Part shown: positions 41,807 through 62,755 of the stretch, one piece after another | Position numbering within the stretch: the first letter of the stretch is position 1 | Layout of the letters: each line of letters starts with the position of its first letter | Assembly: GCF_012927125.1 (NCBI RefSeq) | Contig: NZ_JABBFZ010000001.1 | Coordinates: 124,001-188,000, forward strand | DNA length: 64,000 nucleotides | DNA from: Paraburkholderia antibiotica | GTDB taxonomy: Bacteria; Pseudomonadota; Gammaproteobacteria; Burkholderiales; Burkholderiaceae | Direction of reading: 5' to 3' | Made by a program: the position numbers and the translations under genes | The notes under the pieces: generated by a model | Told to the model about the DNA's origin: nothing | Seen by the model: only the letters and a program-made list of their open reading frames with translations | Databases searched by the model: none

Positions 41807-41906
41807 GGCGCACTGTTTTTCGTTTTCGATTTCCCGGTATTTGCCACACCGGATTGATCAACGTGCAGACCTGCGTCCAACCCTGACCGCTACCGGAGAG
41901 GCGACC

Positions 41907-44267
41907 ATGAGTGCTACCCCGCCCACCGCCACGGAAGTGGATCACGACGTCGATTCGCCCTCGTCTGCACGCAAGTACATCGACGCGGTCCTCGAGCAGT
42001 CGTTTCGTCATCTGTTCGGGCCGACCGCCACGCCGGAGCAGCCGCGCCGGCATGACGTCGTTTCGATCGCCAATCTGACGTCCGCGCTGTCCGGCTATCT
42101 GCAGCCGGAAGAGATCAAGGACATCAAGGCGGCGTTCCATTTCAGCGACGAAGCCCACCTCGGTCAGTATCGCCAGAGCGGCGAGCCCTACATCACGCAT
42201 CCGGTCGCCGTCGCGGAAATCTGCGCGGGCTGGAATCTCGACGCCCAGTCGATCATGGCGGCGCTGCTGCATGACGTGATGGAAGACCAGGGCGTGACCA
42301 AGGCGGAGCTCGCCGAGCGCTTCGGCGCGAAGGTCGCGGAACTGGTCGACGGTCTGTCCAAGCTGGACAAGATGGAGTTTCGCAACCGCGAGGAAGCGCA
42401 GGCGGAAAACTTCCGCAAGATGCTGCTCGCAATGGCGCGCGACGTGCGCGTGATTCTCGTGAAGCTCGCCGACCGGCTGCACAACATGCGCACGCTCGGC
42501 GCGGTGCCGCCCGAGAAGCGTCGTCGCGTCGCGCGCGAAACGCTCGACATTTACGCGCCGATCGCTCACCGGCTCGGCCTGAACAATACCTATCGCGAGC
42601 TGCAGGACCTGAGCTTCGCGAACTTCAACCCGCACCGTTACGCGACGCTCGAAAAAGCCGTCAAGGCTGCGCGCGGCAACCGGCGCGAAGTGGTCGGCAA
42701 GATTCTCGAATCGGTGCAGCGCGCGATCGCGGACGCGAAGCTCGACGCCGAAGTCACCGGTCGCGAGAAAACCATCTTCAGCATCTACAAGAAGATGCGC
42801 GACAAGCAGTTGTCGTTCTCGCAGGTGCTCGACGTGTACGGCTTCCGTGTCGTGGTCGAGAGCGCGCTCGAGTGCTACACCTGCATCGGCGCGCTGCACG
42901 CGCTGTACAAACCGGTGCCAGGCAAGTTCAAGGACTACATCGCGATCCCGAAGGTGAACGGCTATCAGTCGCTGCACACCACGCTGGTCGGCCCGTTCGG
43001 CGCGCCGATCGAGTTCCAGGTGCGCACGCGCAAGATGCATGAAATCGCCGAAGCGGGCGTCGCCGCGCACTGGCTGTACAAGAACGGCAGCGCGGATCTG
43101 AACGACGTGCAAAAGCGCGCGCATCAGTGGCTCAAGTCGCTGCTCGATATCCAGAGCGAGGCGGGCGACTCGAGCGAATTCCTCGAGCACGTGAAGATCG
43201 ACCTGTTCCCGGACGCGGTCTACGTGTTCACGCCGAAGTCGAAGATCATGGCGCTGCCGCGCGGCGCCACCGCGCTCGACTTCGCGTATTCGATCCACAG
43301 CGACCTCGGCAACCAGTGCGTCGCCGTGAAGATCAACAACGAATTGCTGCCGCTGCGTACCGAGCTGAAGAGCGGCGATATCGTCGAGGTCATCACGGCG
43401 CCGTATTCGAAGCCGAATCCGGCATGGCTCGGTTTTGTGCGCAGCGGCAAGGCGCGTTCGGCGATCCGTCATTATCTGAAGACGATGCGTCTGAACGAGT
43501 CCGTGCAACTGGGCGAGCGTCTGGTCGATCAGGCGTTGAAGGGCTACGGGTTCGCGCTGTCGGACGTCACGCCGGAAGTGTGGGAAAAGCTCGTGCAGTG
43601 GACGGGTAACAAGAACCGTCAGGAAATTTTCGCGGACATCGGCCTTGGCCGGCGCGTCGCGGCGGTGATGGCCAAGCGCATCGAAGTGCTGATGAGCGGG
43701 CGCGACGCCGACGACGACGGCTCGCGTTCCGAGTCCGGTTCGACGCCGCATGCGCCGCCTGTGGTCATCACGGGTACCGAGGGCATGTCGGTGCAGTTGT
43801 CGGCCTGCTGCCGTCCGATTCCGGGCGACGACATCATGGGCTATATCGGCATTGGCCTCGGCATGGCGATTCACACGACGGATTGCCGCGTTGCGCAGCG
43901 GATTCACCGGCGCGATCCGGGCCGCTGGATCGACGTCGCGTGGGCGCCGCAGCCGGGTCGTCTGTTCGACGTCGCGGTCAAGGTGCTGGTCAAGAACACC
44001 AAGGGCGTGTTTGCGCGTGTGGCGGCCGACATCACGTCGGCGGATGCGAACATCGTCCATATCGCGATGGATGAAGACCTGTCGCAGGAATCCACGGTGC
44101 TGCGCTTCGTGATCCAGGTGAGCGATCGGGTTCATCTGGCCAATGTGATGCGGCGGGTGCGGACGAACCCGGACGTGATGCGCATCGCGCGTGAACGGCC
44201 GAGCGAAGAAGGGCACCACCGGCATGATGGCGGGATGCGGATCGATCGCGAGCGCGCGGACTACTGA
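41907..44267 (+). CDS. spoT: Bifunctional (p)ppGpp synthetase/hydrolase SpoT (RelA/SpoT family)
   Basis: 786 residues from ATG 41907, preceded by GGAGAGG. Domains in order: HD hydrolase with MAALLHDVMEDQG and KLADRLHNMRTL, complete for alarmone breakdown; synthetase with GREKTIFSIYKKMRD, VLDVYGFRVVV, IPKVNGYQSLHTTL and EFQVRT; TGS with VFTPKSKIMALPRGATALDF; a conserved-Cys region (LSACCRPIPGDDIMGY); and a C-terminal ACT domain. It follows rpoZ, as in other proteobacteria. A second, mobile alarmone synthetase lies at 54.6 kb. Confidence 0.95.
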   Translation: MSATPPTATEVDHDVDSPSSARKYIDAVLEQSFRHLFGPTATPEQPRRHDVVSIANLTSALSGYLQPEEIKDIKAAFHFSDEAHLGQYRQSGEPYITHPVAVAEICAGWNLDAQSIMAALLHDVMEDQGVTKAELAERFGAKVAELVDGLSKLDKMEFRNREEAQAENFRKMLLAMARDVRVILVKLADRLHNMRTLGAVPPEKRRRVARETLDIYAPIAHRLGLNNTYRELQDLSFANFNPHRYATLEKAVKAARGNRREVVGKILESVQRAIADAKLDAEVTGREKTIFSIYKKMRDKQLSFSQVLDVYGFRVVVESALECYTCIGALHALYKPVPGKFKDYIAIPKVNGYQSLHTTLVGPFGAPIEFQVRTRKMHEIAEAGVAAHWLYKNGSADLNDVQKRAHQWLKSLLDIQSEAGDSSEFLEHVKIDLFPDAVYVFTPKSKIMALPRGATALDFAYSIHSDLGNQCVAVKINNELLPLRTELKSGDIVEVITAPYSKPNPAWLGFVRSGKARSAIRHYLKTMRLNESVQLGERLVDQALKGYGFALSDVTPEVWEKLVQWTGNKNRQEIFADIGLGRRVAAVMAKRIEVLMSGRDADDDGSRSESGSTPHAPPVVITGTEGMSVQLSACCRPIPGDDIMGYIGIGLGMAIHTTDCRVAQRIHRRDPGRWIDVAWAPQPGRLFDVAVKVLVKNTKGVFARVAADITSADANIVHIAMDEDLSQESTVLRFVIQVSDRVHLANVMRRVRTNPDVMRIARERPSEEGHHRHDGGMRIDRERADY

Positions 44268-53540: not shown

Positions 53541-53586
53541 TGGTGCCGGAAAGAGGAATCGAACCCCCGACCTTCGCATTACGAAT
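53541..53586. repeat. Left attachment repeat (46 bp copy of tRNA-Thr 3' end)
   Basis: Identical to 62606-62651, beginning at the CCA-end complement and running through the T-arm and anticodon loop; the match stops at 53587. This is the displaced 3' end of the target tRNA gene, marking the outer edge of the element. Confidence 0.93.
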
Positions 53587-53839: not shown

Positions 53840-53990
53840 GCTGATGCCGAGGTCGATGAGTGTTTCAGTTTCGCTAGAAAACCGGTCGTCTCGGTGGACC
53901 GGTTTTTTTAGGCCGACCGCCTTGATCCTTTTCCATCGCGCGCAGCAAATCGCCCGTGCGCAATTCGGCGTGCACACGGCTATTCGCCCG
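53840..53990 (-). pseudogene. Frameshifted remnant of a phage-type protein
   Basis: On the minus strand one frame reads RTGDLLRAMEKDQGGRPKKT and ends at TAG; the next frame continues ETLIDLGISKDQSSRWQ. Together they reproduce the order 'GELLxAMEK...GxP...TLxDLGISKxQSSRWQ' of a protein common in phages and plasmids (often fused to ParB-like or methylase genes). A one-base shift near 53885 breaks it, and both ends are missing. Confidence 0.5.
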
Positions 53991-54104
53991 GCAAGGGTGG
54001 CGACAGCAGCCGCTCGCGGAAGGCGCGGTAGCTTTCGCACTCCAGCGCCCGCGAGACCTGTTTAACCGGTGGTCTCGATCTGCCGCTAGTGGAGACAGAC
54101 TCGA

Positions 54105-54558
54105 TCACGTAAGAGAATTCGTCTGCCCCGGTTCGCCAGAGGTGTCCGCGCAGGCCTTCGGGATGCGGCCATCGGCGCGCCTGCGTGGAAATGGTCGTGG
54201 GTCAGCGAAGTACCCCGATGCGCGAAATTGAGCCTCGGTGCCGGTCCACGTGATGAACGTGCGGGGCACGCCTTCGGCGGGCGCAGCACCATGAATCCTC
54301 GCGATCCACACCTCCCGACCAAAGCCCGCTAGGCAGTCGACGACCCCGCGCTCGATGGCGACGTCCAGACCGGCCCGGCTCGCCAGAATCGACGCATAGC
54401 GCGATGTCGAGAATCGTTGAGCCACCGAGCACGCGCTCGCCGTGGCGGTCGAGCGTGTCGACCATGCCAATGCACATCGGCATGGTCATCACAAAAAAAT
54501 ATGGTAAATTTTGCGACTTATTTGCCGTAGCCACTTGGTCCTCGACAGCGGGTGGCAC
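54105..54558 (-). pseudogene. Possible frameshifted remnant gene
   Basis: Two overlapping minus-strand frames look coding in turn: the upstream one has MPMCIGMVDTLDRHGERVLG and the downstream one has SILASRAGLDVAIERGVVD, AGFGREVWIARIHGAA, TFITWTGTEAQFRASGYF. A shift near 54420 would join them into one protein of about 125-150 residues. Not recognised; coding character is the only evidence. Confidence 0.3.
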
Positions 54559-54592
54559 CGCATCTTCCGCCAGCTTTTAGGAGCAGTGTGCA

Positions 54593-55636
54593 GTGGCATT
54601 CGTAAAACCAAATTACTCGAAAGGCCAGGTCAATCGCGCGGGACAGATACTGGCGGCGCCGGAAAAGTACGCAGCGGACGATCAAGCATGGGCGGACGCA
54701 GTATTGACCAACTGGCGAGCTTGCCACGGATATCCAATCAACACCTTTCAAGCGACGCTTCGGAACAAGCTTCGGGGAATAGACGCGAAGGCACTCGTCG
54801 CGCAACGGATGAAGCGCACCCCTTCGATCGTTTTTAAGCTTCGCCGATTCGAGGATATGAAACTGGCTCGCATGCAGGACATCGGTGGGCTTCGCGCGGT
54901 CCTGGATTCTGTGGGCAAGGTTCGGAAACTTGAAGCCGCATATCGAAACGCCAATTTCCAGCATCAGCTGGTGTCTTCCAAGGACTACATCAACGAGCCA
55001 AAGCCGGATGGCTATCGTGGCATACATCTGATTTACCGCTACGCAAACGTCCGTGCGCCTGAATACGATGGCCTGGGTGTAGAACTGCAAATGCGCACCC
55101 GATTGCAACATGCCTGGGCGACGGCGGTTGAGACGATGGGGACGTTTCTCGGTCAGGCTCTTAAATCCGGTCAAGGCGATCAGGAATGGCGGGAGTTTTT
55201 CAGCAAGGCGGGCGCGGCGCTCGCCATTGTGGAAAAGTGCCCCCCTGTGCCTGGATTTGAAGGGAAGGCGAGCGCGGAGGTGTACGCAGAGCTTGCCGAG
55301 GCCGAACACCGCCTTCGTGTGCTTGAAAAACTGAACGGCTTCGCCATTGCCGCTGACAAGATCACCAGTGAGCGTGGACAAGGCGCGTACCACCTGATCA
55401 TCCTCGATTCCGCGAAGCGCGCCGTCTTTCTCCGTCCATACCCGATCTCACGGTTGGAGCAGGCGAACTTGGACTACGCGGAAATCGAGAAGCGCACAAA
55501 TGCAGGAGAGCCTATCGAAGCCGTCCTAGTGTCCGCCGGGCCGATTGACGCACTTCGCAAGGCGTATCCGAACTACTTTCTTGATACCCAAGCATTCGTT
55601 GCGCAAATCTCCAAGGTGATTGCGCAGGTTGGATAG
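54593..55636 (+). CDS. Single-domain RelA/SpoT alarmone synthetase (possible toxSAS-type defence protein)
   Basis: 347 residues from GTG 54593, after AGGAG. Residues about 60-180 form a RelA/SpoT synthetase domain: SIVFKLRRFEDMKLARMQDIGG with Asp96, SKDYINEPKPDGYRGIHLIYR with the base-stacking Tyr141, and VELQMRTRLQHAWA with Glu164. All key pyrophosphotransfer residues are present. There is no HD hydrolase, TGS or ACT domain. Residues 190-347 are an uncharacterised C-terminal region. It is the only plus-strand gene in the element, at its far edge. Such synthetases act in phage elements as toxins or capsid-triggered abortive-infection proteins; that role is inferred here. Confidence 0.85.
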   Translation: MAFVKPNYSKGQVNRAGQILAAPEKYAADDQAWADAVLTNWRACHGYPINTFQATLRNKLRGIDAKALVAQRMKRTPSIVFKLRRFEDMKLARMQDIGGLRAVLDSVGKVRKLEAAYRNANFQHQLVSSKDYINEPKPDGYRGIHLIYRYANVRAPEYDGLGVELQMRTRLQHAWATAVETMGTFLGQALKSGQGDQEWREFFSKAGAALAIVEKCPPVPGFEGKASAEVYAELAEAEHRLRVLEKLNGFAIAADKITSERGQGAYHLIILDSAKRAVFLRPYPISRLEQANLDYAEIEKRTNAGEPIEAVLVSAGPIDALRKAYPNYFLDTQAFVAQISKVIAQVG

Positions 55637-55691: not shown

Positions 55692-56819
55692 CTACTTGCT
55701 CTTGCCCGCGTGCGTCGCCGTGCCCACAGTGGTTGCCGCCGAGAATCCGCCCCGCAACACGAGCGTCGGATTCGCCACTACCACCGCGAGCCGCGTCTCG
55801 GTAAGGATCGTGACGAGGTTGCGCCGGAAGTTGTCGGCGTCCTCGCGGCTGATCTCGAGCACCACGCCCTGCCGCAGCGCGATGTATGCGCCCTGCGGCG
55901 TCGCGGCGGCGACATAGCTGCCTTGCGGGATCGCTGCGACCGGCACGAACGTCGCCCCGAGCACACCGGCCAATGGCACCAGCGGGTTCATCAGGTATGC
56001 GCCGCTCGCGTCCTTCATGGTTGCCATACCGATCACGTCGAGCGGGTTCAGGCCGACCACGACACGCGTCGCGCCCTGCGCCACCAGCGTGGCGACCGCG
56101 ATCAGGATCGTGTCGAGCTTGTTGTCACCGCCTGCGCCGTCAAGCGCGGTGCCGGCCGTGATCAGCCCGGTCAGGTGACCCGGTGCGCCGTTGCCGTCGA
56201 GCACCTCGGCATCAACCTTCGTCTGCAGCCCCTCGCGCATCTGCACGTCAATGAAGGACTGCAGCGCGGGTTCGTCATCGAGCACCTGCTTCGAGGCGAT
56301 GATCCAGTGCGCGATCGTGCAGACCGGGAACAGCGTGTCGGTCAGCCCGAGCGTGCTCTGCGCCTTGAGCGTGCCCTCGGGGTACTGGTAGTCGGCATTG
56401 TTGGCGAGTTCGCCGCCGATCGCCTGCACCGCGCTCGCGGTGGTCGGCAGCGACACGAGGCTCGACCAGAAGCGCGGCAGCACCAGCGGCGGCACGAGAA
56501 TCTGCTGCGCCTGACCGGGGAAGGTCTGGTTCGTGACCGGCGCAAGGTCGGCCTTCAGGTCGTAGTCGTCGAAGGCTGCGCGTACGGTGCGTGGCCCGTT
56601 GCCACCGGCCCACTGGGTGAGCAGGTTCGACTTCGCGGCCAGCGCGCCGAGCGAGGTGCCGCGTGCGCCGCTGCCAATGCGCCGGCCCTCGTCGATGCCG
56701 CCGTACTTCTGCCCGAGGTCGAGCAGGTTCGTTTCGATTCCCTGCATCCGTTCGGTCATGGCCTTGTCGCGATCCGCGAACGCCTGCATGACCATCTGCT
56801 TCATTTCACTCATGTCCAT
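55692..56819 (-). CDS. HK97-family phage major capsid protein
   Basis: 375 residues from ATG 56819, after GGAGTCCGAA. An N-terminal coiled scaffold-like segment (residues 1-40) is followed by the HK97-fold core: FWSSLVSLPTTASAVQAIGG, YPEGTLKAQSTLGLTDTLFP with the E-loop region, IASKQVLDDEPALQSFIDV, and in the A-domain VVVGLNPLDVIGMATMKD and TRLAVVVANPTLVLRGGF. No separate protease or portal gene is nearby. It is downstream of the small terminase subunit on the same strand. Confidence 0.88.
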   Translation of the reverse strand: MDMSEMKQMVMQAFADRDKAMTERMQGIETNLLDLGQKYGGIDEGRRIGSGARGTSLGALAAKSNLLTQWAGGNGPRTVRAAFDDYDLKADLAPVTNQTFPGQAQQILVPPLVLPRFWSSLVSLPTTASAVQAIGGELANNADYQYPEGTLKAQSTLGLTDTLFPVCTIAHWIIASKQVLDDEPALQSFIDVQMREGLQTKVDAEVLDGNGAPGHLTGLITAGTALDGAGGDNKLDTILIAVATLVAQGATRVVVGLNPLDVIGMATMKDASGAYLMNPLVPLAGVLGATFVPVAAIPQGSYVAAATPQGAYIALRQGVVLEISREDADNFRRNLVTILTETRLAVVVANPTLVLRGGFSAATTVGTATHAGKSK

Positions 56820-56983
56820 TTCGGACTCCGTTTCGATTCTCCTGCGTCGGCGGTTTCGGTCGGCGTGGACGGGTTCAGCATCGCGCAGAGCCACGGCGCG
56901 CAGCCAGCGCGTCACTGCAAAACGGATCGCACAGCATCACGCAGGCATCCGCACGGCCAGTTTTCGCCGTTAGTCGTTGCTGC

Positions 56984-57466
56984 TCAGAAGTACCGGCCGG
57001 CCGGTGTTTCGTCATCGGTCGGTCCCGGGGCCATCTCGATACCCGCTCGCGCCGCTGGTGTCATGCCGAACTCGCGGCACATGCGCACGTACATCAGCAT
57101 CGCGCGGTTCGCAATGCCCACCAGCGGATTCTGGATCGCGTTACCCAGCGCCGTCCTGATGATCAGGCCGTGCGTGGTCGCGTCGCGCTCGCCCATCTTC
57201 GCCAGCGCGTTCTCCGCGCGCACCCAGCGCCCGTACAGCACGCACACCGCCGCGAGCGGCCCGCGATCGAGCGCGGTGATCATGCCGAGCCCCGCGAACT
57301 CCCTGGCGATGCGCCGCCACTCGGTGAAGGCGATCAGGTCTCGCCGCACGTGCGCCGGCGCGTCCGGCATCTTCGCGCCCGGCGTCAGCGTTTTGCGCGG
57401 CTGCCGGTCGGCGCGAAACGTGCCGTCGACAACGTGCAGCGCGGTTGGTTTCCGTGGGCGTGCCAT
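56984..57466 (-). CDS. Phage terminase small subunit, P27 family
   Basis: 160 residues from MARPRKPTALHVVDGTFRAD (57466), after AGGGGGTCGAAC. The opening RPRKPTALHVVDGTFRxDR and the helical core EWRRIAREFAGLGMITALDRG, LAAVCVLYGRW, and REFGMTPAARAGI are typical of P27-type small terminase subunits, which recognise the packaging site. No large terminase subunit follows; the capsid gene does, so packaging would have to rely on another phage. Confidence 0.85.
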   Translation of the reverse strand: MARPRKPTALHVVDGTFRADRQPRKTLTPGAKMPDAPAHVRRDLIAFTEWRRIAREFAGLGMITALDRGPLAAVCVLYGRWVRAENALAKMGERDATTHGLIIRTALGNAIQNPLVGIANRAMLMYVRMCREFGMTPAARAGIEMAPGPTDDETPAGRYF

Positions 57467-57634
57467 GTTCGACCCCCTGTAATCCGTTTTGCCGTTTTGC
57501 AAACAAATGTTGGAGGGGGGTGCTGGGCGAATCGACTTTCGACATTTGACCCGCCCCACCGCCTCGCCTTCGCCTCGAGCCGCGACTGCTTCGCTATCCG
57601 AACGTTATCGCTCGCGAGGATGCGAGGCAAGCGC

Positions 57635-58051
57635 TCAGTTCAGCGTGCGCGGGCCGCTGGCGGGCTGGACGTCCTCGCAGTCGGCGAGCAGGCCGATCAC
57701 GTTCGCGGTGATCTCACCAAGCGCATACATGCCGGCCGCACGCAGCTGCGCATCGTCGCGGCAGAATTTCAGCACTTCCGGCACGCTCACATAGCCCGGC
57801 ACGTTCGCTGGTCCGCTCAGTGAGAGGGCGGTGGTGCGCTGCCGTCCGAACGCGAGCAGCAGCGAATCGTTTGCCCGTACTACTTCGATCGAGTGCATGA
57901 CGGTCATGCAGTAGCTGCGCATCTCGTCGGCGCTCCCGACACGCAGACGGCCACCGGTCCCCGCGAGTTCGCGCATCCCCTGGTGCAGACGCGTGAGCAC
58001 GTCGAGCGCATAACGTTCGGTGTCGCTGTATTTGCTGAGGTGTGTGCTCAT
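57635..58051 (-). CDS. Hypothetical protein of the element (138 aa)
   Basis: From MSTHLSKYSDTERYALDVL (58051), preceded by GGAGACAGAC. A helical, soluble 138-residue protein with no recognised domain. It ends about 170 bases before the small terminase gene and starts 33 bases before the end of the TOPRIM gene's frame, in the same operon. Confidence 0.7.
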   Translation of the reverse strand: MSTHLSKYSDTERYALDVLTRLHQGMRELAGTGGRLRVGSADEMRSYCMTVMHSIEVVRANDSLLLAFGRQRTTALSLSGPANVPGYVSVPEVLKFCRDDAQLRAAGMYALGEITANVIGLLADCEDVQPASGPRTLN

Positions 58052-58083
58052 GTCTGTCTCCGTTTCTATTTGCGGGCAAGCCA

Positions 58084-58995
58084 TCAAATAGGACTGTCGC
58101 CGTCGAACTTCGCCCTCACTGCGCCCATGAAATCGTTCATGGACTGCCGCTGGACAGTCTCAATTCTCATGCAGTGCTCCCACGCATCACGCTCGATCAG
58201 CGCCTCGATCTCTTCACGCACACGCTCACGAAGGTCGCGCGGGTCCATCGCATCGAGTTCCCAGCACTGGTCGCCGTACATGCGCTTGTACCACTGGTGA
58301 CGCGGATCGTTCGCCTTCGAGTCGGTCGCGAATCCAGGCAACGCCGGGTGCTTCACGTCGTCCGAGGTAAGCGCTATTCGCTTCAGGATGTAATTGCGGT
58401 CTTCGAACGGAATCGGCCACATACGGCCATTCGCGCCGTAGCGGTCGAGCCGGTCAGGCAGATCGACTTCCGACATGTGCATGCCGCTCGGATCGAAGTC
58501 GCCGATGTATAGCAGGTGGGTCGGCTTCATCGCGCTCCGGATCTCGTCAGCGATATCGTGCACAGTTGTGGCAGACCCGTATCCGTGCAGCACGCGAAAG
58601 GTCACGCCCAGTTCATCGAGCACGGGCGCAATCGTGCCGCGTACGGTGCCCTTCTCGCTGATCACCTCGACGTGAAACGGCTGGTCATTCCAGTAATCGA
58701 GCCGGTACCCGAGCACTGCGGCGTTCATGATCTGCATGGGGTTATCCCATTGCTGTGCGCGTTCCGGGCGACGGGTCTCGTCAACGATCCATTCCCATTC
58801 GACATGCCCGCTTTCGCGCGCCCGCGTGAGCAGCGACGACACCTTGTTGGTGCTCGTCTTGGCCATGTTCGGGATCAGTCCTATCGTGAACAGCTTGTAG
58901 CAGACTGCCCGAACGGTCGCAGGATGGATTGTTTCGAGTATGTTGATCGCGGCATCACGGATAACCTTCGACGCTTCGTGCAGTCCGCGGCCCAT
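58084..58995 (-). CDS. TOPRIM / topoisomerase VI subunit A-like protein (Mini-A type)
   Basis: 303 residues from MGRGLHEASK (58995). Residues 15-85 form a winged-helix segment with HPATVRAVCYKLFTIGLIPN; Tyr33 sits where topoisomerase VI-A/Spo11 proteins carry the catalytic Tyr (T-x-R-x-x-x-Y). Residues 105-185 form a TOPRIM domain: VEVISEKGTVRG with Glu114, and LLYIGDFDPSGMHMSE with Asp166 and Asp168. No B subunit or GHKL ATPase is nearby. Stand-alone A-like 'Mini-A' proteins are described from mobile elements; they may cut or nick DNA during replication. The activity is untested here. Confidence 0.75.
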   Translation of the reverse strand: MGRGLHEASKVIRDAAINILETIHPATVRAVCYKLFTIGLIPNMAKTSTNKVSSLLTRARESGHVEWEWIVDETRRPERAQQWDNPMQIMNAAVLGYRLDYWNDQPFHVEVISEKGTVRGTIAPVLDELGVTFRVLHGYGSATTVHDIADEIRSAMKPTHLLYIGDFDPSGMHMSEVDLPDRLDRYGANGRMWPIPFEDRNYILKRIALTSDDVKHPALPGFATDSKANDPRHQWYKRMYGDQCWELDAMDPRDLRERVREEIEALIERDAWEHCMRIETVQRQSMNDFMGAVRAKFDGDSPI

Positions 58996-59162
58996 GATAT
59001 TCGCCTCCTTGCGAAACGTGGTTGTCTAGATAAACAAGGTTAAGTGTTAGCAAGTTATACAGTTTCGTAAGCATTGCTAACCTGATAAACCAAAGTAACG
59101 TACTTAAACAAATAGACACTACTAACTCTACTAACTACTACCTACTACTACTTCTGTTTTTC
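58996..59162. other. AT-rich origin- or operator-like region beside repA
   Basis: The most AT-rich stretch of the window. It carries the inverted repeat GTTAGCAA (59046-59053) / TTGCTAAC (59074-59081) with 20 bases between, then a run of CTACTA/CTACTAACT direct repeats at about 59108-59150. It separates the RepA and TOPRIM genes. An element replication origin, or an operator for the downstream operon, would look like this. Confidence 0.5.
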
Positions 59163-60242
59163 CTATTGCTGCTCGGCTTCGATGATCTGCCGACCGATCT
59201 CGCTGAGCGACAGCACGCCCATCGGTCGGCGCACGAGCCCAGCTTCGAGCAGGCGCGAGACCATCTTCGAGACGGCGGCACTGCTTACCTTGAGCGCCTT
59301 CGCGATCTGGCTCTGGAAGCCTGCACCCTGCGCGATCACGCGCAGGTAGGCCAGCTGCTCGTTGCTCACCATCGCGTCGGCATCACACATGAAGCGGAAT
59401 TGCAGGTCGTCACCGAGGCGCAGCAGAAGGCGGCTGTCGGCCACATCGCGTCCGGTCATGTGCAGCACGCGCCGGTCGTCGGCCTCCTTGCGCAGCACGA
59501 AGAGGGCGTCCGCGCCGCCCGCCACGGCCGTCGATCCGCCGATCTGCGCATAGACGTCACCAAGGTCGCTTTTCGTTGTGTGCCCCACGGCGATGATTGC
59601 CATCGCCCGTTCGTTGGCCTCCCGTGCGAGGAATGCGAGTTCGCTGCCTTCCTGTTCGTATTGATCCTGCCTGCGGTCGAGCGGCGCACGAAACTTCGCC
59701 CACACGTCGACGACAAGCATCCTGACCGGCATCCTGTCGAGCGCCTCGGTAAGCGCATTCTGATTGCCGCGCTTCCAGTCGAAGGACCACGCGAGGTTCG
59801 GTATATGCGAGGTGTCGATCCCGGCGCGCGTGAGGCGGTCATGCACGCGCCAGCGGGCGTTCTCGATATCGATGTACCAGCAGCGGCCCGCATCCACCTC
59901 GCGGCCCCACAGCGGCTTGCCGCTCGCCACCGCAACGGCCATCTGCAGGGCCAGCAGACTCTTACCGCCTTTCGGTCGGCCGGCGACGTAGATGAGCCCG
60001 CATGGCAGCAGGCCGTCGATCACGAACTTCGGACGCACGGGTGGTGTGGCGATCAGGGTTTCGGTCATCACGATCTCCGGGGTCCAGATTTCGGGCGCTT
60101 TGGTCTTGCCGTTCGGCTTTGCCTCCCCGTGACCATTGGGCTTCGCGCGGCGCGCTTCAGCGCGCTCGCGGCCGGCCTTGCTGAAGTCGTCGCGTGCTGC
60201 GGCCTGCTCATATTCGTCGGGGTCGATGAACGACGCGGTCAT
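59163..60242 (-). CDS. RepA-type AAA ATPase (putative replicative helicase) with C-terminal winged helix
   Basis: 359 residues from ATG 60242. Residues 70-280 form an AAA_25/RecA-like hexameric ATPase: Walker A GRPKGGKSLLALQM (88-95), Walker B MLVVDVWA, IIAVGHTTKSD, and IGGSTAVAGGADALFVL. This is the core of RSF1010 RepA-type plasmid helicases. Residues 290-355 look like a MarR-type winged helix (IAKALKVSSAAVSKMVSRL). The Lys/Pro-rich N-terminus is a linker. It overlaps the upstream gene by four bases and faces the AT-rich origin-like region downstream. Confidence 0.85.
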   Translation of the reverse strand: MTASFIDPDEYEQAAARDDFSKAGRERAEARRAKPNGHGEAKPNGKTKAPEIWTPEIVMTETLIATPPVRPKFVIDGLLPCGLIYVAGRPKGGKSLLALQMAVAVASGKPLWGREVDAGRCWYIDIENARWRVHDRLTRAGIDTSHIPNLAWSFDWKRGNQNALTEALDRMPVRMLVVDVWAKFRAPLDRRQDQYEQEGSELAFLAREANERAMAIIAVGHTTKSDLGDVYAQIGGSTAVAGGADALFVLRKEADDRRVLHMTGRDVADSRLLLRLGDDLQFRFMCDADAMVSNEQLAYLRVIAQGAGFQSQIAKALKVSSAAVSKMVSRLLEAGLVRRPMGVLSLSEIGRQIIEAEQQ

Positions 60243-60505
60243 AGCTCACCCCGCGCAGCCTGCTCACGCAGCCACAGGCGCGCGGCCTCGACCACGTTCG
60301 CCGTGACCCACTCGCGATGTTCGATCCACCGCGCGGGCGTCAGCGTACGCTCGCAGCGGGCCAGTTCGCGTTCGATCATGGCTTCGACGCGCACGCGCAG
60401 CAGTTGCGCGCGGGAATGTTTCGCACTACGATCGGCGCATGCCGTCAGCGGCATGTCCAATGATCTTCCGCCCGCCTCGCGCGGGCTTTTTTCTGCCTGC
60501 ATCAT
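60239..60505 (-). CDS. Small hypothetical protein of the element (88 aa)
   Basis: Starts at ATG 60505 after GGAGGCCGTC and ends with an ATGA overlap into repA, so the two are translationally coupled. Helical, Arg/Glu-rich (RAQLLRVRVEAMIERELARC). It could be a repA partner or regulator; not recognised. A second in-frame ATG 17 codons in is an alternative start. Confidence 0.6.
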   Translation of the reverse strand: MMQAEKSPREAGGRSLDMPLTACADRSAKHSRAQLLRVRVEAMIERELARCERTLTPARWIEHREWVTANVVEAARLWLREQAARGEL

Positions 60506-60517
60506 GACGGCCTCCGG

Positions 60518-60859
60518 TCACGCGGTTTCATCGTCCCGCAACGTAGTCACACGTGTGGACCTCGGCTTGACGGGTTCGACCGGTGCATAAGGCGCTTCGG
60601 TTGTCGCTCTGGCGAGAACGCGCGAATCCTCCCGCTTCATTTCGACGATGGCGTTGAAGAGGGCCACCGGCTGGTCGGTCACGATGCGCTTGCCGACGAC
60701 GAACAACAGGCCGAGGTCCATGAGTTCGCGTTTGCGGTGACCGGAGACATAGGTGCGCCCCGACTGCTCGGACTGGAACAGCGGTTCGCCATAGGTCGCG
60801 CACCACGATTGTTCCCCGCCATACATATCGAGCAGGAGCTTGCGGGTTACTTCTTCCAT
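60518..60859 (-). CDS. Small hypothetical protein of the element (113 aa)
   Basis: ATG 60859 (MEEVTRKLLLDMYGGEQSW) follows GGAGGATGTG. The middle part, SGRTYVSGHRKRELMDLGLL followed by hydrophobic beta-like residues, suggests a small winged-helix fold with a helix-turn motif. It may be a regulator; not recognised. It lies between the integrase-linked gene and repA. Confidence 0.6.
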   Translation of the reverse strand: MEEVTRKLLLDMYGGEQSWCATYGEPLFQSEQSGRTYVSGHRKRELMDLGLLFVVGKRIVTDQPVALFNAIVEMKREDSRVLARATTEAPYAPVEPVKPRSTRVTTLRDDETA

Positions 60860-60937
60860 CACATCCTCCAATGGTCACTGGTGGTTCGTTGCCAATACTG
60901 GCGGGCGTCCAGACCTGCCAATGGATGTGATGGTGGT

Positions 60938-60969
60938 CAAAAAAAAAGACCGGAACTTAGGTCCGGTCT
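60938..60969 (-). terminator. Terminator between the integrase unit and the rep operon
   Basis: AGACCGGA and TCCGGTCT form an 8-bp stem; on the minus strand a run of nine T residues follows. It separates the int operon from the replication/packaging operon. Confidence 0.85.
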
Positions 60970-60993
60970 CGTTTACTTCATGGGATGGGGTGG

Positions 60994-61530
60994 CTACGCG
61001 ACCCTTTCACTCTCGGGTGGCGCTTCGTCGTCGGCATGTGGTGGTGGCCACGGGATGTCCCTCACAACCTCGCGGGCCTTCGTCTCGCTCATGCCAAGTG
61101 TCTTGCTGATGTGCGTGAACAGTTCGTTCTTCGTAACCTTGTGATGCGGGAGCGCCGCGCGGCGGTGATACTCGCTCACCCATAGCGCGCGCACCTTTTC
61201 AGTTTTGGCTTCGCTATACCGGTTGCCGTCGCGCTGCAATTGTTTCGTGTCGATCTTCTGGAAGCCGTCCCGAAGCGGTTCCTCAAAGGCCGTGAGCACC
61301 TTATGGATAACTTCATGGTTCCGTACACGCATGGCCAGGCGCAACGGAGCGGGCGGTTCGTTGCCAAGTACCGCCTTGAAGTTATCAACCAATACCTGCT
61401 CAAGTTCGGCCACTGCGACGAATATGGCCGCGTCGATAATGGTCATCCCGATTTTTTCGCGCGTGCCGATGCTGGCATCGGTCAACCAGACTTCGGGGAG
61501 CGGATACGGCGCCGTTTTTTCCTTCTTCAT
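60994..61530 (-). CDS. Hypothetical protein coupled to the integrase (178 aa)
   Basis: Starts at ATG 61530, overlapping the integrase stop by four bases. Mostly helical, with FVAVAELEQVLVDNFKAVLG and a C-terminal HTH-like stretch KNELFTHISKTLGMSETKARE. The latter could bind DNA, so a role as recombination directionality factor or repressor is possible but unproven. A terminator follows. Confidence 0.65.
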   Translation of the reverse strand: MKKEKTAPYPLPEVWLTDASIGTREKIGMTIIDAAIFVAVAELEQVLVDNFKAVLGNEPPAPLRLAMRVRNHEVIHKVLTAFEEPLRDGFQKIDTKQLQRDGNRYSEAKTEKVRALWVSEYHRRAALPHHKVTKNELFTHISKTLGMSETKAREVVRDIPWPPPHADDEAPPESERVA

Positions 61531-62534
61531 GCGATGTCTCCCATGACGCGCTCCACGATGGCCCGCTTACTGTCGATGGTCAGATGGCTATACCTTCGCG
61601 TCACATCTAATTGCTTATGTCCGAGCGTCGCAGCCACGTCGAGCAGCGACGCGCCGTTCTGGGCGAGGTAGCTTGCGCAGGTATGCCGCAGGTCGTGGAA
61701 CTTGAAGTCAGTCAGGTGCGCGTCACGCACGGCGGTCGACCATGAGCGGTTGATGGTGAACGCACGGTCAGGGTCGCCCACGCGCGCGAAGAGCAGGGCC
61801 TCGCGAACCTTCGGCTTGCCGAAGCGGCGGATTTCCTCGATGACGGCGGGCGTGAGCGGCAGCATGCGCGGCTCGTCGTTCTTCGACAGGCGCACGTAAG
61901 CTGTCGCGCGGTCGAGGTCGAGGTCGAGGTCCGAATAGCGCAGGCGCAGCAGTTCCGACTTGCGCGCGCCCGTCGTGATGCCCATCAGTACAAGCAAATA
62001 AAGCCGGTTCCATGTCGACAAGCGGCAAACGGCCAGCAGGCGTTTGCGCTCGGCGTCGTCCAGAAAGCGCACGCGCTCGTTGTTCATCGTCAGCCCGGGT
62101 ACCTCGCGGCACGGGTTCGTCCAGCCCTTGGGCATCAGGCGGCGGGTTTTTGCAAAACCGAGGACGGCGGAAAGCACGGCCTTTGCCTTGTTGATCGAGC
62201 CGGGTTTCGGTAGGCCGAGTTCGCGATAGAGCATCGCGCCGTTGTCATCCTTGCCGATGAAGCGTCGCACAGGCGTGGCGGCCCAATCGTCAAGCGCATC
62301 GGCTACGGCGTCGCCGTCCACATCGCACGCAATCCAGCCATCAAGGTATTGGGTCCAGCGGCGGACAATCTGAGCGCGTGACGGATCGCGGCCTTGATAG
62401 GCGGCTTCGTAAGCGGAGGCAAGTTCGGAGAAGGAGATTCGCCGCCTGTCCGGCGCACCGATGGCGCGAACAGGGGCGATTTCGTAGGCGGTTGCAGATG
62501 AAGCGCGAACGATTTTACGGCTTGACGTGGACAT
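61527..62534 (-). CDS. Tyrosine-type site-specific integrase
   Basis: 335 residues from ATG 62534. An N-terminal SAM-like core-binding domain (residues 40-150) precedes the catalytic domain: Arg I in GITTGARKSELLRLRY, the HxxR box in FHDLRHTCASYL, the second His in LGHKQLDVTRR, and the nucleophile in RRYSHL. It lies 72 bases from tRNA-Thr and should recombine the 46-bp repeat. It is the likely agent of integration and excision. Confidence 0.93.
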   Translation of the reverse strand: MSTSSRKIVRASSATAYEIAPVRAIGAPDRRRISFSELASAYEAAYQGRDPSRAQIVRRWTQYLDGWIACDVDGDAVADALDDWAATPVRRFIGKDDNGAMLYRELGLPKPGSINKAKAVLSAVLGFAKTRRLMPKGWTNPCREVPGLTMNNERVRFLDDAERKRLLAVCRLSTWNRLYLLVLMGITTGARKSELLRLRYSDLDLDLDRATAYVRLSKNDEPRMLPLTPAVIEEIRRFGKPKVREALLFARVGDPDRAFTINRSWSTAVRDAHLTDFKFHDLRHTCASYLAQNGASLLDVAATLGHKQLDVTRRYSHLTIDSKRAIVERVMGDIA

Positions 62535-62605
62535 AACAGACCCCATGAGAGCAACGCATTCGTTTGCTGTACATGGGGGCGTGGAAGCCTCGCCAGTATT
62601 GGTTT

Positions 62606-62651
62606 TGGTGCCGGAAAGAGGAATCGAACCCCCGACCTTCGCATTACGAAT
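62606..62651. repeat. Right attachment repeat (46 bp, within tRNA-Thr)
   Basis: The 3' part of the intact tRNA-Thr gene, supplied by the element on integration. It equals 53541-53586 base for base. Confidence 0.93.
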
Positions 62652-62681
62652 GCGCTGCTCTACCGTCTGAGCTATTCCGGC
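62606..62681 (-). tRNA. tRNA-Thr (anticodon CGT)
   Basis: 76-base minus-strand cloverleaf with encoded CCA. Acceptor GCCGGAA/TTCCGGC, anticodon stem GCGCA/TGCGA with loop TTCGTAA (anticodon CGT), T-loop GGTTCGATTCC. It is the integration target of the element and stays functional. Confidence 0.96.
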
Positions 62682-62755
62682 ATCAGGAGAAACGAGATTA
62701 TAGGGACTTCCGTATCGATCTGACAAGCCCCTATAAGCATTTTTTTATTTCGAGA

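Follow-up and report, generated by a model that had tools for sequence, protein, structure and literature searches.

A CapRel-like gene carried by a satellite-like element at a tRNA-Thr site of Paraburkholderia antibiotica

The window analysed here, a 64,000-nucleotide stretch of the Paraburkholderia antibiotica genome (contig NZ_JABBFZ010000001.1, positions 124,001 to 188,000), contains an element of 9,065 bp with a perfect 46-bp direct repeat at its ends and, 1.0 kb inside it, a gene for a 347-residue CapRel-like protein, placed between the gene for an HK97-type major capsid protein and the remnant of an end gene (Table 1). The protein's family, its intact residues, its match to the CapRel fold, the element and the genetic context form the observed part of our explanation; from these, and by analogy with the CapRel of Salmonella phage SJ46 (CapRel-SJ46), we consider it probable that the gene, as cargo of a satellite-like element, codes for a fused toxin-antitoxin of the CapRel type, which would likely serve as an abortive-infection alarm. 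An earlier note on this DNA had proposed defence cargo of the CapRel type, a proposal to which sequence, predicted fold and context all lend support.

RelA_SpoT (PF04607, 3.1e-15, residues 71-177) is the only domain match in the 347-residue protein, and a scan against Pfam families found no hydrolase domain. This agrees with the earlier description of a lone RelA/SpoT synthetase with intact D96, Y141 and E164; together with R72 and R101, these residues are invariant in 60 of the 60 sequences of alignment A2, which comprises the window protein, 14 of the 119 other listed proteins and 45 of 50 viral frames. Another alignment (A1) held 13 chosen sequences, and a relative with an internal stop (in genome G113) was excluded from the alignments. 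Small alarmone synthetases align with the N-terminal half of the protein, and the sequence alignment to the CapRel-SJ46 structure 7ztb spans residues 7-341, that is, its full length. In the structural comparison that had been called for, residues 5-345 of the predicted structure match residues 12-372 of CapRel, the C-terminal region included; that region, which by eye had resembled no known antitoxin or sensor, aligns to the CapRel pseudo-zinc-finger with its YXXY motif. The PADLOC candidate family PDC-S33 likewise matches the protein over its full length (1.7e-124), and since CapRel-SJ46 matches it too, PDC-S33 seems to be another name for the CapRel family; we found no mention of PDC-S33 in the open-licence papers searched. 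The assignment to the fused CapRels is firm as far as sequence and predicted fold reach, as every family feature amenable to such tests was found. The start residue (MAF...) is common to the aligned close homologues, and the gene has a G+C content of 0.565, against 0.629 for positions 55692-62605 and 0.631 for the window. It is one of three places in the 7.44-Mb genome that match PF04607. A long RelA/SpoT homologue at 41841-44267, a candidate for the host SpoT postulated earlier, shows an HD-type motif by eye.

Individual residues can be read against CapRel-SJ46, in which, as described in passages of PMC9712102 and PMC11578894, R79 and R116 coordinate ATP, Y155 is a G-loop residue, Y352 and Y355 form the YXXY lock, and A77, V338, L339, A341 and A351 belong to the autoinhibition interface. 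Their respective counterparts in the window protein are R72, R101, Y141, Y325, Y328, A70, V311, L312, S314 and A324, nine of the ten being identical. The YXXY stretch is described as helical in the closed state of CapRel-SJ46 (PMC9712102, in part), and the corresponding YPNY stretch is modelled as a short helix (residues 326-329), with a predicted local distance difference test score (pLDDT) of only 71 for residues 321-330. For a wider view of this motif we used 79 matching frames from the best 80 of 112 confirmed viral loci, which filters for length (300-400 aa) and identity (<90%) reduced to 50; YPNYF or YPSYF is present in 39 of these non-redundant viral-contig relatives, a variant with F for Y in five, and neither pattern in six.

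The element itself is an insertion, because in two related genomes (G048 and G030) the site is empty and the left flank, 79-81% identical over 1.4-1.6 kb, is joined directly to the tRNA. Together with the perfect repeat of the 3' part of tRNA-Thr, this bears out the mobile element that had been proposed, and it disposes of a housekeeping synthetase at this locus, a possibility raised as a refutation and rejected here, as in these two genomes the left flank meets the tRNA with no element between them. The CapRel-like gene is inverted within the element, since all element genes with a family match lie on the minus strand, and it occupies the attL end, as first noted. Several features of a phage-inducible chromosomal island (PICI) are present, namely an integrase, att repeats, an empty site in relatives and a packaging-related gene without a full virion set: the small terminase subunit and the capsid are the only virion-type matches among the scanned element open reading frames (ORFs), several small ones of which have no match, and portal, large terminase, protease and tail genes were not recognised among them. 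A portal search of the genome gave one match, below the cut-off. In another element, a relative of the remnant end gene with an open frame follows downstream of the capsid gene at a distance of about 0.7 kb. The topoisomerase-type gene has its phrog_6247 'DNA topoisomerase' match but none in Pfam. By title, we found no Burkholderia or Paraburkholderia satellite with a capsid in the open-licence papers searched.

Table 1. Features of the element and of the CapRel-like gene (window coordinates)
Feature	Position	Strand	Basis or remark
attL, 46-bp copy of the tRNA-Thr 3' part	53541..53586	.	100% identical to 62606-62651
Satellite end-gene remnant, split over two frames	53983..54404	-	tblastn with G038 (L067) gene: 61% and 89% identity
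AGGAG, ribosome-binding-site-like, 9 bases ahead of the capRel GTG	54579..54583	+	read from sequence
capRel-like gene, putative fused toxin-antitoxin, 347 aa	54593..55636	+	GTG start
toxSYNTH core, residues 61-185	54773..55147	+	R72, R101, Y141 = SJ46 R79, R116, Y155
Anchor-type helix, residues 227-241	55271..55315	+	most variable compared segment among close relatives (0.46 identity)
Pseudo-zinc-finger antitoxin/sensor region, residues 260-323	55370..55561	+	mapped from SJ46 281-350
YPNY = YXXY neutralisation motif, residues 325-328	55565..55576	+	aligned with SJ46 Y352/Y355
HK97-type major capsid protein gene, 375 aa from likely ATG	55692..56819	-	PF05065 4.4e-27
Terminase small subunit (P27 / Terminase_4)	56984..57559	-	PF05119 1.6e-21
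Satellite gene of no assigned family	57635..58087	-	39% identical relative upstream of capsid gene in L066
Topoisomerase-type protein	58084..58995	-	phrog_6247 9.6e-52
AAA_25 ATPase, likely replication	59163..60242	-	PF13481 3.1e-20
Tyrosine integrase frame, true start uncertain	61527..62726	-	PF00589 8.5e-26
tRNA-Thr(CGT), attachment site; attR core 62606-62651	62606..62681	-	repeat = tRNA 3' part

The CapRel-like gene is cargo of the element, not part of its core. Full-length relatives occur in seven of 196 related genomes and, the own genome included, in four of the 117 same-genus genomes searched, and the other full-length relatives in related genomes are 27-44% identical. A phage collection yielded six records with a match, which in three extends over at least 80% of the protein, and a plasmid collection 100 records with relatives, all below 60% identity; a near-identity DNA search of plasmids returned 25 records, and in the 20 listed the match is confined to about 70-76 bases at the tRNA. 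A 67% identical relative lies on a 3.2-kb contig of a Burkholderiales metagenome-assembled genome (MAG; L034, 2240-3067), where it begins 27 bases past a helicase-type ORF that is itself preceded by a sigma-factor-type ORF (by eye).

The tRNA-Thr/fbp site DNA was matched in all 58 genus genomes searched, and at least five of them (the own genome, G045, G047, G054 and G057) carry an insertion with the first 30 core bases at both ends, with G004 a probable sixth; this count is a lower bound, being based on second copies among the matches listed. Two of these insertions hold defence-type genes, a REase_II match in G057 and DRT3 in G047. The latter is a two-gene reverse-transcriptase defence system (L101, 1400-4664) at the attL end of a 13.6-kb element, opposite the integrase end, which is also where capRel sits in the window element. 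In G045 and G004 the single gene tested in each gave no PADLOC match. Elsewhere, in G113, GajA and GajB are encoded about 3 kb away from the CapRel relative that has an internal stop. The sister element at the tRNA-Thr site of G054 (L102) has a 60% identical integrase and encodes a phage portal protein (PF04860, 7e-90), while nothing in it matches the window capsid; satellites here seem to carry structural genes singly. A further element (L069, in G081) encodes an integrase, an AlpA-like ORF (by eye) and a terminase small subunit, again with no match to the window capsid; its topoisomerase-type protein and AAA ATPase are 56% and 70% identical to those of the window element, with which it shares a replication module while differing in its packaging gene set.

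That the element encodes a capsid, as first reported, is confirmed by the PF05065 match of its HK97-type protein; the capsid gene ends 55 bp from capRel, the two genes are convergent, and the predicted capsid model has a mean pLDDT of 73.2. Relatives of this capsid occur in 10 of 144 genus genomes. Of the five related capsid proteins that bear an organism name, four come from Paraburkholderia and one from Psychrobacter, and 26 of 33 capsid proteins entered alignment A3. Four of the seven capsid regions fetched from the genus (L064, L065, L066 and L067) are small elements with an HK97-type capsid gene, in L066 and L067 with a protease-like ORF in addition, and neither large terminase subunit nor portal was seen by eye in the ORF maps of the four; L068, by contrast, resembles a full head gene set. 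The gene content of L064-L067 falls short of the complete set that capsid-forming satellites have for their capsids. In L064 and L065 no PADLOC match was obtained for the genes tested downstream of the capsid (one matches Pfam MauJ), which leaves the idea of a general hotspot for defence genes at this place unsupported. An Enterobacter CapRel relative (46%; L035, 9995-11053) lies directly upstream of terminase, portal, protease and capsid-type genes, in a region that is prophage-like as judged by eye and by a capsid match.

In SJ46-type CapRels the C-terminal region is reported to be the least conserved, which is read in PMC9712102 as an arms race with phage proteins; in the same account, CapRel-SJ46 and CapRel-Ebc are 70% identical overall and 47% identical in this region. 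We compared, at the protein level and without a tree, 119 relatives of the window protein with 119 relatives of CapRel-SJ46 at equal overall identity to the query, each list comprising the 120 highest-scoring proteins that passed a word prefilter. All 119 of the former and 18 of the 118 SJ46 relatives (out of 119) that fall in the identity bands given lie at 66-80% overall identity. In this band the toxin-core identity minus the sensor identity averages -0.025 for the window relatives (n=119, -0.12 to 0.10) and +0.243 for the SJ46 relatives (n=18, 0.18 to 0.31), ranges that do not overlap. The separation persists when the sets are thinned at 80% or 75% identity and when gaps are scored as mismatches. 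A sensor far less conserved than the toxin, as in the SJ46 type, is thus not found among the close window relatives. Both domains add to the difference, because at 70-74% overall identity the toxin core is lower in the window set (0.726 versus 0.809) and the sensor higher (0.764 versus 0.579); in pairs with a toxin identity of 0.70-0.75, sensor identity is 0.726 in the window clade versus 0.331 in the SJ46 clade. Variability is similar in the two sets for the helix at residues 227-241 (0.46 versus 0.52) and for a strand of the sensor, residues 277-283 (0.53 versus 0.58); for residues 22-43 it is higher in the window clade (identity 0.52 versus 0.79). The window list ends near 67% identity because relatives are many (5003 matches among 7998 scored), and only the band above about 70% (73 versus 11 relatives) should be near complete in both lists. 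Among the sources named for the window clade are Verrucomicrobia, Fimbriimonadaceae and Pseudomonadota, in each case as MAGs, and few relatives have a named host. A search of the phylum with the toxin half found matches at E <= 1e-20 in 12 of 398 genomes and, as only the own genome exceeds 55% identity, is unusable as an unbiased sample for the sensor. As judged from these alignments, the sensor of the close relatives appears to evolve unlike that of the capsid-sensing SJ46 group.

The protein may function as follows, by analogy with CapRel-SJ46, the work on which supplies each step, from autoinhibition through tRNA modification to abortive infection. At rest, the C-terminal pseudo-zinc-finger would fold back and plug the ATP site of the N-terminal enzyme through YPNY. 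A signal of infection would then draw it away, and the freed enzyme would pyrophosphorylate tRNA 3' ends, so that the expected product is pyrophosphorylated tRNA and not ppGpp. Translation would halt, and the phage would give few progeny. As to the trigger, we lean away from a fast-changing capsid and towards a conserved signal, either a phage product that is itself conserved or a complex of a phage protein with a host protein, or, alternatively, towards binding at the variable anchor helix, since a sensor tightly kept across diverse hosts fits either of these better. A precedent for a trigger other than the capsid is CapRel-Ebc, which needs host FtsZ together with phage Gp0.4 (PMC13423816, in part), though it belongs to the variable-sensor group. 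A broader proposal, that this CapRel lineage has left the arms race at its sensor, keeping it as tightly as the catalytic core across several phyla and reading a conserved infection signal such as a phage-altered host protein, is one that we advance tentatively, as a possibility and not as an expectation.

Several observations weigh against the reading of the protein as a CapRel alarm with a conserved sensor. The window protein is only 31-33% identical to experimentally tested CapRel, the interface residue A341 of SJ46 is replaced by S314, the predicted model alone does not reveal the closed state, and a simple scan found no sigma-70-like promoter for the gene. None of the ten SJ46 trigger-contact positions looked up is kept. 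Viral-contig relatives with a toxin identity of 0.58-0.62 to the window protein have a sensor identity of only 0.30-0.44, and in pairs of viral relatives at a toxin identity of 0.7-0.8 the sensor stands at 0.616 (n=51), between the two clades, in a comparison that used the 76 of 79 frames within a length limit. In sequence terms the conserved-sensor pattern thus belongs to the close clade, the distant viral relatives not clearly sharing it, and it may stem in part from the score ranking or from a young clade.

A capsid-sensing CapRel like that of SJ46, in which the new major capsid protein of an infecting phage would bind the pseudo-zinc-finger and activate the enzyme, is in our view unlikely, but it accounts for part of the evidence. 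Fold and autoinhibition residues are those of CapRel-SJ46, which is itself triggered by a capsid (PMC9712102, in part); the HK97-type capsid of an invader would be foreign to the cell, as the genome has no PF05065 capsid besides that of the satellite; and the sensors of the more distant viral relatives are less conserved relative to the window protein. Yet L280 and L307, which passages of PMC9712102 and PMC11578894 give as important for capsid binding, are replaced by S259 and A277, the contacts K278, S279, R314 and K316 by I257, T258, P284 and S286, and L270, D273, N275 and L276 fall in an alignment gap. The pseudo-zinc-finger of the close relatives is, moreover, conserved like the toxin core, unlike in the SJ46 relatives, and CapRel-Ebc, 70% identical to CapRel-SJ46, is described with another trigger (PMC13423816, in part). 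The earlier suggestion of the capsid as trigger is weakened to that extent.

An addiction module that mainly stabilises the element, with defence as a by-product, would suit a toxin and antitoxin fused in one chain and borne by an integrated element; classical addiction is difficult to account for, however, because an antitoxin within the same chain could not be lost separately, and other elements at the same tRNA-Thr site hold defence genes, which together make this improbable. The convergent arrangement at 55 bp and the standing of the capsid as a known type of trigger would favour the adjoining satellite capsid as trigger or regulator, the gene then acting on the satellite or its helper and not on invaders generally. 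We hold this to be very improbable. CapRel-SJ46 is phage-carried and its phage must own a capsid, so that there is nothing unusual in an element that bears both a CapRel and a capsid gene. In the fetched flanks of 80 viral contigs that hold relatives, weak capsid seeds had no match (portal, protease or terminase seeds, also weak, matched five contigs, and any seed six), and no CapRel match came up in the other element that has a related end gene. The idea of a stand-alone synthetase that supplies the host with (p)ppGpp or (p)ppApp, suggested by PF04607 and the match of small alarmone synthetases to the N-terminal half, has scarcely any probability left, given that three NCBIfam synthetase models match far below their own cut-offs (the RelQ/RelP-type model NF053588 at 49.6 bits against 320), that the full-length match is CapRel with a C-terminal antitoxin, and that the gene is rare in the genus and borne by a mobile element.

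CapRel is a leading case of an immune protein whose fast-changing sensor follows phage proteins. A lineage with an invariant sensor would predict a single trigger recognised by many members across hosts, and would tell whether CapRels generally guard host proteins, as CapRel-Ebc suggests. If the broader proposal of a sensor outside the arms race is true, a capsid-making satellite could carry a CapRel alarm without setting it off itself, and the satellite context offers a clean test, with a possible capsid sensor and a capsid gene on one element.

Among known systems, PICIs and capsid-forming PICIs (PMC11389934, in part) resemble the window element in being small and integrated, with an integrase, replication-type genes, a small terminase subunit and a capsid; they differ in the portal, large terminase, protease and tail genes that were not recognised among the scanned ORFs of the window element, a putative satellite. 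FaRel2:ATfaRel2 and other toxic small alarmone synthetase (toxSAS) pairs share the pseudo-zinc-finger antitoxin and a YXXY motif blocking the ATP donor site, but consist of two separate proteins, whereas the window protein is a single chain (PMC11782079, in part). PDC-S33 is listed by PADLOC as a candidate family only. CapRel-Ebc of Enterobacter chengduensis is also a fused CapRel, with phage Gp0.4 and host FtsZ as trigger; it differs in belonging to the variable-sensor group, where its 47% identity to SJ46 in the C-terminal region places it, a comparison made through the published identities alone (PMC9712102, in part). The likeness to CapRel-SJ46 (PDB 7ztb, 9erv) extends to full-length alignment, toxSYNTH residues, pseudo-zinc-finger, YXXY motif, predicted fold and carriage by a mobile element. 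The window protein departs from it in overall identity and in the trigger-contact positions, in lying on a satellite-like element and not on a phage, and in having, among its close relatives, a sensor as conserved as the toxin core.
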